Origin: a virus
Length of the DNA stretch: 64,000 nt
Virus record (IMG/VR): IMGVR_UViG_3300020165_000021
Location: 1 to 64,000 of that record
Reading direction: 5' to 3' (one strand)
Shown: in pieces, positions 14,371 through 33,195 of the stretch
Position numbering within the stretch: position 1 is the stretch's first letter
Layout: the number at the start of each line of letters is the position of its first letter
Made by a program: the position numbers and the translations under genes
The notes under the pieces: generated by a model
Databases searched by the model: none
What the model saw: the letters and a program-made list of their open reading frames with translations, nothing else
What the model was told of the DNA's origin: nothing

Positions 14371-15168
14371 TTATTTAGGTGTTTTGATATGCCAGAACCT
14401 ACGGAAGTGAACATAATTTGGTGGTATTGATGCAAACTTAACTGGTTCCATAGGATTCTTAGGGTGTACATCTTCTAGTGTCCAACTATACACGTCTCTT
14501 CTGTAGACTTCGTTAGGTATGATTATACCAAATTCATTATCCAAATCTTCATCATCATATCTTGTGTAGGTCTTACCTATCTCGTCTAAGTATTCTTCTA
14601 CATGTGTATCATTAAATGAAGCTTCCCACTGGTCGAACCCATTAAAGACTCTAGAATTTTTCTTCTTCTTTTCGCCTGGAGCTCCATGTACACCCGACCA
14701 CTCTTCTTGTCTAAACCATGGTGCTGGCATTGGTAATGAATTGACTGCAGTCTCTAAGAACATTTCATCCGTATGATTAAATGCTCTTCTCAAATCATCA
14801 TAGATGTTTTTAACATGATATAGAGTACCAAAGTGTATAATCAAATCCCACTTTCTATTGAAAGACCATTCGTCATTATGATTGATACATAACTTTTCTG
14901 AGTCTGTTTCTATGGAATCCAGTAGTTCTTGTCTAGCATCTGCATAACTTACAGTTGCACCCAACTTCTCAAAGTGTCTACCAATCAATCCATGTGCAGT
15001 TCCTAGTTCTAGGATAGTCTTACCATCAAACCAGTCTTCACCTTTACAATCGATAACCTTTTTAACTCTTGCTTCCGTTGGAAGGTACATTGTGTGTTCG
15101 TCATCTGTGATTGGATTCTTCCATTTAAAGAAACCTTCCAACCCCTCACCATACTTAATCATCTTCAT
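14371..15168 (-). CDS. Class I SAM-dependent methyltransferase
   Basis: A 265-residue protein with the SAM-binding motif ILELGTAHGLIG at 52-63 (usual form E/DxGxGxG; here GTAHG) and an acidic/aromatic end of the second strand (SYADA, 74-78). A later WDLIIHFGTLYHV resembles motif IV of small-molecule and tRNA wobble-type methyltransferases. The substrate is unknown. The ATG lies 5 nt after a GATAAATA late box, predicting leaderless expression. An in-frame ATG two codons later is an alternative. It is isolated from gp23 by a terminator and the RNA gene. Confidence 0.75.
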   Translation of the reverse strand: MKMIKYGEGLEGFFKWKNPITDDEHTMYLPTEARVKKVIDCKGEDWFDGKTILELGTAHGLIGRHFEKLGATVSYADARQELLDSIETDSEKLCINHNDEWSFNRKWDLIIHFGTLYHVKNIYDDLRRAFNHTDEMFLETAVNSLPMPAPWFRQEEWSGVHGAPGEKKKKNSRVFNGFDQWEASFNDTHVEEYLDEIGKTYTRYDDEDLDNEFGIIIPNEVYRRDVYSWTLEDVHPKNPMEPVKFASIPPNYVHFRRFWHIKTPK

Positions 15169-15173
15169 ATACT

Positions 15174-15181
15174 TATTTATC
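15174..15181 (-). promoter_or_regulatory. Late-type box GATAAATA, 5 nt before methyltransferase ATG
   Basis: Minus-strand GATAAATA-AGTAT-ATG. It is separated by 3 bp from an oppositely oriented perfect TATAAATA (15185-15192), forming a near-palindromic divergent late promoter. Confidence 0.6.
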
Positions 15182-15184
15182 GCG

Positions 15185-15228
15185 TATAAATATGTGCCTT
15201 GACAATGGATATCATATTTTGGTATACT
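15185..15228 (+). promoter_or_regulatory. Tandem plus-strand promoters: late TATAAATA and early sigma70 type
   Basis: TATAAATA at 15185-15192 is a perfect T4 late box on the plus strand. Directly after it, TTGACA (15199-15204) and TATACT (15223-15228) with an 18-bp spacer reproduce the early promoters at 772-801 and 3720-3749, including the upstream GCC and downstream ATG context. Both point into the gene-free 15235-15520 region, away from all protein genes. Confidence 0.72.
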
Positions 15229-15234
15229 TGTAAG

Positions 15235-15550
15235 GTAGGAAGTCGAGACGGAAGTTAGATGGTTGTGAGAGGTTGTTCCGTATAGACAAGGTGTTCCACA
15301 CTGTTAAAGTCAATTAAGACGTGGCATATAATCGTGAGGTGTGGATAGAATCCGAACAGAGAAGCACTTGAAATTTCTGACAAATTGGAATGGTGTGGTA
15401 AACGAACTTCCGTATGGTCACTACCTATTGACCTTAATAAAATTGGGGTAAGGCCCCACTAGAAGGACACGGTGTAAAGAATTGGGGTCATACCCAAGAC
15501 ATTGAACGATTCAGTCATGCTAAAAAAAACCCCTCGTGAGAGGGGTTTTA
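15235..15550 (+). ncRNA. Predicted structured RNA of about 315 nt, family unknown
   Basis: No ORF of useful length lies here, but it has plus-strand promoters in front and a terminator behind. Complementarity seen by eye: a perfect 9-bp long-range helix (15248-15256 with 15405-15413) enclosing about 150 nt; a 7-bp helix (15295-15301 with 15339-15345) or the alternative CCAC/GTGG (15296-15299 with 15321-15324); GGAT-AGA-ATCC (15343-15353); CAGAGAA/TTTCTG with one bulge (15357-15379); GGTCA/TGACC (15416-15433); TGGGG-TAAGG-CCCCA (15444-15458); TTGGG-GTCATA-CCCAA (15482-15497). I do not recognise the family. It could act as an sRNA, a decoy or a structural RNA. The 3' end would meet gp23 transcripts at a shared terminator. 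Confidence 0.55.
15521..15550. terminator. Bidirectional terminator for gp23 and the plus-strand RNA
   Basis: A 10-bp stem AAAACCCCTC/GAGGGGTTTT with GTGA loop. On the minus strand it is followed by eight T, ideal for ending gp23 mRNA; on the plus strand it ends in TTTTAG. Confidence 0.85.
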
Positions 15551-15583
15551 GTATTCCAATTAAGGAATGAGAACCTAAGTTCC

Positions 15584-16888
15584 TTACAGAATGTTAGACA
15601 CTGCCATCTTTCTGTAGTACTGGTTAGTTCCAGCGGATGCAAGTCCGTCAGCAGGTGTAGCACCTACGAATGGATTTGAAACCATACCATATCTAGTTTT
15701 GAAACCGATTTTTGGTTGGAATGTGTTCTCACCTACTGCACGAACCATTTGTAATGGAACGTATGGGCAATAGAAAAGACCAGCATCATAAGGGTTAGTT
15801 CCTCTATAACCTACTGTTAAGTAGTCAACACCAGCATATGGGTCAACATATACTTTAACTCTTCCGTTTAGAAGACCAGCAAAAGTATTACCAGTATCGT
15901 CAACGTTTAAGTTTGTGTTAAGAGCAGGAGTGTAATCTAATACACCTGCCATTGAAAGAGCAGAAGCTACATCAGATGAACATAGGATAAAGTTACCTTT
16001 TCCTCTACGTGTATCTTTAGCGATGAAGTTTGATTCTCTTTCGATTTGGAACAATAATCCTTTGAATTTCTCAACAGACCATCTACCGTTAGCATCAACG
16101 TCTAGGTTGAAAGTACCTGCTGAAGCTGTTGAAGCTGCACCAGTTTTTGCTTGTAAGTTAACATTTCTGATAACTTCACGGTTGATTTCTGCAAGAATTT
16201 CTGATGAAAGAATATTTGCAAGTTCTGATTCTGCGTCAAGACCGTGGATTGCTTTGAGGTCTTGTGCAAGTTCGAGTGTGTACTCAGCTTTTAATGCTCT
16301 GGATTTAGCAGTGACAGTAGCTTTCTCGATTGAGAATGCCATCTCTGCAAAGTGATTTCCTGCTCCATCACCTAATGCTTCAGCAGAAGCAGTACTCATA
16401 CCACCACTTGTAGTGGATGCGTATGAAGGAGATGATGTGTCGAAAGGGTCACCTATTGGGTCTGAACCTAGTGAAGTACCTGTTCCTTGAGGAGATGCAG
16501 AGTAATCAGTTCTTGCTTCGTTATGAAGTGCTTCTGATTTTGCAGCTCTATCGGCGTCAGTATCATCGTTATATCTTGCTTTCATAGCAAAGATAAGTCC
16601 AGTTGGGCCTGTCATTGGTTGAACACCACAAATGTCGTATGCAACGAGATTTGGCATAGCACGTCTTACTAATGAAATCAAAATAGGATTCCAGTTTGCA
16701 ACCGCGCTTCCAGTAGCATTTAAAGGTGCTGCTTCTTCCAAGTTTCCTTGCTCTTCGAAAAGGGCCTTCTCTTGGTTTTCAAGAATAACAGCAGTAACAG
16801 CACGCTTGTAGTTGTCTTCGATTTTTGGTAAATCGGAGTGTTCTAGAATCGGCTCCCACTTTTCTTGTAAGTTTTCTGATAAAAACAT
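15584..16888 (-). CDS. 23: gp23 major capsid protein
   Basis: A 434-residue T4-type capsid protein. It shows typical segments: NLVAYDICGVQPMTGPTGLIF, EMAFSIEKATVTAKSRALKAEYTLELAQDLKAIHGLDAE and a C-terminal GFKTRYGMVSNPF, all hallmarks of gp23 in marine T4-likes. The ATG has an AAAGGAAAA ribosome site 18 nt after the gp22 stop. A T4-like cleavage site for the gp21 protease is expected in the N-terminal 60-70 residues (acidic EEQGNLEEA region). It is followed by a strong terminator. Confidence 0.95.
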   Translation of the reverse strand: MFLSENLQEKWEPILEHSDLPKIEDNYKRAVTAVILENQEKALFEEQGNLEEAAPLNATGSAVANWNPILISLVRRAMPNLVAYDICGVQPMTGPTGLIFAMKARYNDDTDADRAAKSEALHNEARTDYSASPQGTGTSLGSDPIGDPFDTSSPSYASTTSGGMSTASAEALGDGAGNHFAEMAFSIEKATVTAKSRALKAEYTLELAQDLKAIHGLDAESELANILSSEILAEINREVIRNVNLQAKTGAASTASAGTFNLDVDANGRWSVEKFKGLLFQIERESNFIAKDTRRGKGNFILCSSDVASALSMAGVLDYTPALNTNLNVDDTGNTFAGLLNGRVKVYVDPYAGVDYLTVGYRGTNPYDAGLFYCPYVPLQMVRAVGENTFQPKIGFKTRYGMVSNPFVGATPADGLASAGTNQYYRKMAVSNIL

Positions 16889-33163: not shown

Positions 33164-33195
33164 GGATAAAAAAAACCCCTCTTTCGAGGGGTTTG
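33164..33195 (-). terminator. Rho-independent terminator after repeat-fibre gene
   Basis: Minus strand: CCCCTC-GAAA-GAGGGG stem followed by eight T. Almost the same sequence as the gp23 terminator at 15521-15550. Confidence 0.85.

Follow-up and report, generated by a model that had tools for sequence, protein, structure and literature searches.

Conservation, covariation and a promoter of invariant spacing strongly support the presence of a gene for a structured RNA, with no protein-coding role, at 15235-15517 on the plus strand of the window (the whole stretch of 64,000 nucleotides of viral DNA analysed here). Such a gene had been proposed in an earlier annotation made from the letters alone, referred to below as the sequence-only reading. 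It lies in the gap of 415 nt (15169-15583) between a methyltransferase-like gene and the major capsid gene gp23, which is gene-free as that reading had described. With its own promoter motif, a covarying fold and the absence of coding, the predicted RNA has the features of a free-standing structured phage ncRNA, and the covariation-supported family that it represents is absent from Rfam and invisible to protein-based annotation. The features of the region are as follows.

14371-15168, minus strand: methyltransferase-like gene, divergent neighbour (PF13489, E 4.1e-07)
15185-15192, plus strand: TATAAATA, a T4-late-type motif, in 5 of 32 upstream regions and not judged part of the conserved unit
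15199-15228, plus strand: sigma70-type promoter motif, TTGACA, 18-nt spacer, TATACT (motif scan and relatives)
15235-15517, plus strand: body of the predicted structured non-coding RNA, aligned and modelled (24 distinct full-length sequences; covariance model R1)
15238-15245 with 15403-15411, plus strand: helix P1, A15405 bulged, closing the main domain
15248-15253 with 15276-15281, plus strand: helix P2, with a 22-nt loop, all pairs invariant
15290-15291 with 15352-15353, 15295-15301 with 15339-15345 and 15302-15311 with 15318-15326, plus strand: helix P3 and its extension
15364-15368 with 15392-15396 and 15372-15376 with 15382-15386, plus strand: hairpin P4, two pairs changed on both sides
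15416-15420 with 15429-15433, plus strand: hairpin P5, two pairs changed on both sides, 100% paired
15444-15449 with 15453-15458, plus strand: hairpin P6, two pairs changed on both sides
15482-15486 with 15493-15497, plus strand: hairpin P7, one pair changed on both sides
15522-15549, both strands: terminator-like hairpin, the signal being strong on the minus strand (gp23) and weak on the plus strand (RNA)
15584-16888, minus strand: gp23, major capsid gene, convergent neighbour (PF07068, E 7.9e-147; phrog_138)

The early-type promoter named in the sequence-only reading is borne out as a motif. It has 11 of the 12 consensus bases, TG precedes the -10 element, and it is the best of seven promoter-like matches in 14500-16200, where shuffled sequences give 4.7 matches on average. 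TTGACA, a spacer fixed at 18 nt, and TATACT (28) or TATAAT (4) are present in all 32 distinct upstream regions, a set from which L240 was left out as it starts too late. The RNA is presumably transcribed from this promoter with a start near 15235, and it would probably be made early in infection, a timing that the type of promoter suggests. The window has three more strong promoters of this type, near 772, 3720 and 32107, all on the minus strand. The late motif TATAAATA at 15185 is the sole plus-strand copy, with 11 copies on the minus strand. Its plus-strand carriers are the window, L098, L100, L101 and L110, and late expression from it was rejected on this count of five among 32 regions. The motif, which had been counted as part of the unit, is there in the window yet not in most relatives, and the late half of the proposal that the RNA is made both early and late is not supported. 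A simple greedy call places two of 58 ORFs on the plus strand, neither matching a PHROG, in agreement with the earlier statement that this is the only supported plus-strand unit in the 64 kb.

Folded alone, the window sequence is marginal, with a z of -1.84 and an equally good fold in 4 of 100 shuffles. The consensus fold was obtained from an alignment of 24 distinct full-length sequences, partial ones being left out; RNAalifold gives 59 pairs, and 57 are counted after two isolated pairs (columns 239-240 with 276-277) are dropped. Over the 24 sequences 99.3% of 1360 cells pair, and nine pairs, spread over P1, P3, P4, P5, P6 and P7, change on both sides, which is the covariation that the sequence-only reading had named as a check. 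The fold comes from the same, related sequences, which favours it, and the controls are not to be read as probabilities: in percentage paired, in the two both-sides counts and in the covariation score the fold is equalled by none of 500 shuffles, 121 of 500 reach the measure of further pair types, which is thus not above shuffles, and sliding the partners by 1-3 columns leaves 29-49% paired. Pairing is 88.8% when the alignment is read as the minus strand, against 99.3% on the plus strand, and the 17 variable pairs hold 79 G-U as against 6 A-C cells, which indicates the plus strand. A minus-strand RNA from the whole gap was rejected on its z of -1.02 and its poorer pairing.

Individual helices differ in how far they vary. 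P1 is paired in 100% of cells; one of its pairs is A-U in 15 sequences and G-C in 9, a change on both sides, and another is changed on one side only. The pairs of P2 are all invariant and so beyond the reach of covariation, as is most of P3, where one pair goes from C-G to A-U in 2 of 24 sequences and the remaining pairs are invariant. The lower part of P4 is paired in 94.2% of cells. P7 is paired in 98.3%, with A-U in 13 and U-A in 11 sequences. In L152 and L155 P5 is replaced by a different hairpin and P6 is absent. The 9-bp long-range helix of the sequence-only reading, ACGGAAGTT (15248-15256) with AACTTCCGT (15405-15413), is indeed perfectly complementary in the window, but among the 24 sequences 84.7% of its cells pair, none of its pairs is changed on both sides, and one of them is broken in 13 of 24 and another in 15 of 24. 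It was therefore rejected in favour of the overlapping P1, which covaries and joins nearly the same 3' strand to a partner further upstream.

The long invariant unpaired stretches, such as the 22-nt loop of P2, in a free-standing RNA with its own promoter, speak for what is the main rival to the accessory role favoured below. The RNA would be a trans-acting base-pairing small RNA that anneals through its conserved loops to mRNAs of the host or the phage, altering their translation or stability. On the other side, complementary 11-13-mers in the 64-kb window number 6, 2 and 1, against means of 11.0, 3.1 and 0.6 in mono-nucleotide shuffles. With no excess of such matches, antisense targets within the window were rejected, and the base-pairing role is given a minor, though real, chance of being correct.

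As for the terminator assigned to the RNA, the hairpin is present, but its plus-strand side is weak. The hairpin (15530-15545) has eight T on the minus (gp23) side and four on the plus side, so it is mainly the terminator of gp23 and the 3' end of the RNA is uncertain. In a consensus scan it appears for the minus strand alone, and a terminator-like hairpin is retained beside gp23 in relatives without the RNA. A near-identical counterpart of the hairpin (15521-15548) is found at 33167-33194 of the window. In L239 (320-720) and the variants L241, L242, L254, L261 and L268, the RNA is longer at its 3' end by about 60-70 conserved nt, which precede the terminator hairpin and may form an extra domain; a separate RNAalifold run on six of the 3'-extended variants gives a partly different 5' fold.

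Known classes of RNA were searched for in several ways. Rfam 15 gives no match at gathering score in the window, and in the gap at E up to 10 it gives ten weak hits, all far below gathering score, so the earlier statement that no known family fits stands. No RNase P family is among these hits, and RNase P RNA was rejected. In eight RNA-bearing loci (L152, L246, L120, L239, L238, L255, L116 and L281) Rfam finds glutamine riboswitches only, outside the RNA. The alpha-tmRNA model RF01849 finds nothing in ten IMG/VR phage records, and ARAGORN finds nothing in the window or nine other loci; both detect the tmRNA of phage Melnitz (106.7 bits with RF01849), and tmRNA was rejected. A riboswitch or cis-regulatory leader was rejected, as the gene that follows the RNA is gp23, encoded on the other strand, in all 31 distinct flanks; in L116, L152 and L281 a small minus-strand ORF region lies between the RNA and gp23. 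A cis-antisense RNA was rejected because the body lies wholly in the gap, between 15168 and 15584, and overlaps no gene. A small protein gene was rejected on stops in all three plus frames in the six of the 24 sequences that were inspected, and indels of 1-2 nt among the relatives also argue against a conserved reading frame. From the failure of the tmRNA, riboswitch-type leader, cis-antisense and Rfam tests it follows that the family is not in Rfam, and the predicted RNA is best placed as such a family within the broad known kind of phage-borne structured RNA. It might still belong to a known class (tmRNA, RNase P RNA, 6S RNA or riboswitch) but be too divergent for current models to find, as its size is in range and Melnitz, a related marine phage, is described as having a two-piece tmRNA (PMC9004378). 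This is very unlikely given the absence of any credible Rfam match, of any tmRNA besides that of Melnitz in the records and loci searched, and of a same-strand gene downstream. By eye, the RNA bears a loose resemblance to conserved motifs of RNase P.

Homologues of the RNA, reached via pattern and protein queries in IMG/VR, are present in 69 contigs besides the record of the window, so that about 70 is a lower bound; conservation in relatives, whose absence would by the sequence-only reading have counted against the gene, is thereby seen. The 17-mer TGGCATATAATCGTGAG leads to 65 stretches in 65 contigs, all of which align to the RNA (21 + 44), and a 15-base pattern yields at least four further homologues among the 60 new loci listed. 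In queries not aimed at it the RNA is a minority trait, found in 1 of 80 loci kept for gp23 (some of which end before the slot) and in 9 of 80 kept for the neighbouring gene g178. No locus was found with two copies. By blastn, the body is absent from 50,697 phage records, which give only 31-nt matches at about 15169-15199, outside the body, and plasmid records give no match. A copy in cellular genomes was rejected: one pattern finds 18 stretches in cellular genome contigs, and with E up to 0.1 three of them align, none over more than 36 nt. In 190 genomes from the class to which G017 belongs, model R1 has no match at E <= 0.001, a negative that carries no weight since the set has no positive genome, and in two genomes searched singly it gives one partial match of 14.9 bits, taken as chance. 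Also taken as chance are its matches in Melnitz and P-RSM4 (13.8 bits, away from gp23) and in G006 (9.7 bits). Two weak blastn alignments, of 55 nt in L051 and 47 nt in L062, were disregarded; that in L051 falls within a coding region upstream of gp23. Judging from their nearest annotated relatives, the phages carrying the RNA are presumably marine.

The RNA is more conserved than the genes around it. Mean nucleotide identity is 93.2% for the RNA (26 representative loci), 82.3% for gp23 (20 loci; 89.7% at codon positions 1 and 2, 67.6% at position 3), 78.4% for uvsY (23), 74.2% for g72 (25) and 70.2% for g178 (25), the genes being averaged over the representative loci where they were recovered. 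Pairwise identity of the RNA is uncorrelated with that of gp23 (rho 0.05, 190 pairs) or uvsY (rho 0.08, 253 pairs) and weakly correlated with that of g178 (rho 0.22, 300 pairs); g178 identity tracks gp23 identity (rho 0.58). The missing correlation with gp23 and uvsY, expected for exchangeable cargo, suggests that the RNA recombines or spreads largely independently, and its low divergence may partly reflect recent spread instead of constraint.

The site next to gp23 is, judging from comparison of flanks, an optional and exchangeable cargo slot. After merging of identical sequences, 121 distinct gp23 3' flanks of at least 300 nt were compared. Among the 63 near relatives (gp23 segment at least 79% identical to that of the window), 31 have the RNA, 7 a PNKP-type 3'-phosphatase gene, 25 neither and none both. 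Because the search was aimed at the RNA itself, the 31 of 63 should not be taken as its frequency in nature. Neither cargo occurs in the 58 flanks that are more distant. All 38 cargoes (31 RNAs and 7 PNKP-type genes) are convergent to gp23, and in every one of the 31 distinct flanks reaching gp23 the RNA lies just downstream of it, pointing towards it, at a distance of 55 to 418 nt. Such constant convergence and closeness would suit a purely local effect, in which convergent transcription limits read-through or tunes gp23. Neither 280 nt of sequence conservation nor covarying helices would be needed for this. The RNA body and gp23 do not overlap, and relatives without the RNA keep gp23 and its terminator; a local effect is accordingly held to be highly improbable.

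In T4, R-loop transcripts at origins prime DNA synthesis. A lone promoter-driven non-coding transcript close to uvsY might likewise be an origin transcript, the promoter and RNA forming an R-loop that primes phage DNA synthesis. Against this, close relatives (L092 and L095) have an empty slot with both flanks and the terminator of gp23 retained, other relatives have a protein gene in place of the RNA, and the fold of the RNA is conserved, making an origin role most improbable. Origin transcript, local interference and hidden known class are the less likely explanations.

The protein alternative in the slot matches PF25109 (E 1e-26) and also PHROGs that bear the name polynucleotide kinase. In 10 of 11 distinct upstream regions the gene is preceded by a TTGAC-type promoter whose spacer is 18 nt, L373 being the exception; this count used a loose -10 pattern, and some of the 11 genes are elsewhere in the genome. 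In L104 (1850-2560) and the other PNKP-type loci L178, L192, L218, L226 and L009, the PF25109 polynucleotide 3'-phosphatase gene replaces the RNA in the same slot and orientation, behind an early-type promoter. Among whole records, a strong PNKP match is present in 5 of the 14 that lack the RNA and in 0 of the 13 that carry it, which is only suggestive since many of the records are fragmentary and related. Matches of 14-18 bits and 24-27% identity in a frame of 455-457 aa, which in the window lies within the gene upstream of gp23, were disregarded for this count. The argument from PNKP as slot partner is one of guilt by association and suggestive. The methyltransferase-like gene varies in presence independently of the RNA, and a fixed pair of the two was rejected. 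The methyltransferase occurs without the RNA in L087-L097 and next to the PNKP-type gene in L104, L106, L108 and L109. Of the 31 distinct flanks with the RNA, 28 show no methyltransferase within 1500 nt. A small protein family containing NGKSGFEIRADLL (L120 949-1233 and many relatives), with no Pfam or PHROG match, often adjoins the RNA promoter.

An RNA that is free-standing, optional and structured, has an early-type promoter and is interchangeable with an RNA-repair-type gene is most simply read as a trans-acting accessory RNA. The reading that we favour, believed and doubted in equal measure, is a free-standing early accessory RNA of about 285-315 nt, carried as optional cargo and serving in trans to take over the host or counter its defences. 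Transcription of this RNA would start early in infection at its own host-type sigma70 promoter and run towards gp23. In its fold, P1 would close a main domain with the arms P2, P3 and P4, and the hairpins P5-P7 would come after it. The slot content is exchanged between related phages as the RNA, a PNKP-type gene behind a like promoter, or neither. The structured RNA, plausibly binding protein, would then work in trans in early host takeover or counter-defence.

A role in counter-defence is suggested solely by the slot shared with the PNKP-type gene, and this exchange within one early-promoter slot gives a concrete, testable idea of function. In its specific form, which we regard as unlikely, the site would be an early counter-defence slot where an RNA-repair-type enzyme is swapped for an RNA serving the same end. 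The RNA might, for example, inhibit a host system for cleaving tRNA or other RNA, or be a structured decoy for it. If true, it would represent a new class of phage counter-defence RNA, an RNA-only weapon; if not, it is still a tightly conserved RNA of T4-like phages with no known job.

GOLLD, ROOL and OLE RNAs occur in phages and are much larger than the RNA next to gp23. They are likewise conserved, elaborately folded ncRNAs whose function is described as uncertain (PMC12286853), while the RNA next to gp23 has no Rfam match. Marine T4-like phages are described as carrying CfrI, PhotoRC-II, wcaG, manA, glutamine riboswitches and two-piece tmRNA (PMC9004378, PMC9602691, PMC2864571). The two-piece tmRNA of the Melnitz type is, like the present RNA, phage-borne, structured and reported from only part of its group, and is placed by its authors just downstream of an early promoter, as here (PMC9004378); unlike it, the gp23-adjacent RNA matches neither the alpha-tmRNA model nor ARAGORN. 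CfrI, an antisense RNA of cyanophage S-PM2, is also a non-coding RNA of a marine T4-like phage, and is described as complementary to the 3' end of psbA (PMC9602691), whereas the gp23-adjacent RNA overlaps no gene. In an open-access collection, which lacks most subscription journals and bioRxiv, none of the papers found describes an RNA next to gp23 in its title or the start of its abstract, and an earlier description may exist.

Other RNA elements occupy the neighbourhood of gp23. The manA RNA (RF01745, 171.5 bits) of cyanophage P-RSM4 (L301 3387-3578) is likewise in an unannotated gap next to gp23, but on the gp23 strand, and the window gap has no RF01745 match even at E up to 10. In the near-identical S-TIM4 record, an ORF of unknown kind is annotated at the manA position. 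Glutamine riboswitches (RF01739) occur in the same region downstream of gp23 in L003, L116, L152 and L281. In L116 and L152 the riboswitch lies between gp23 and the RNA, on the gp23 strand, as a separate element, and the RNA itself has no RF01739 match. The aptamers are at L152 1835-1898, L116 10782-10898, L003 4381-4495 and L281 9296-9359, and those of L116 and L003 are in tandem.
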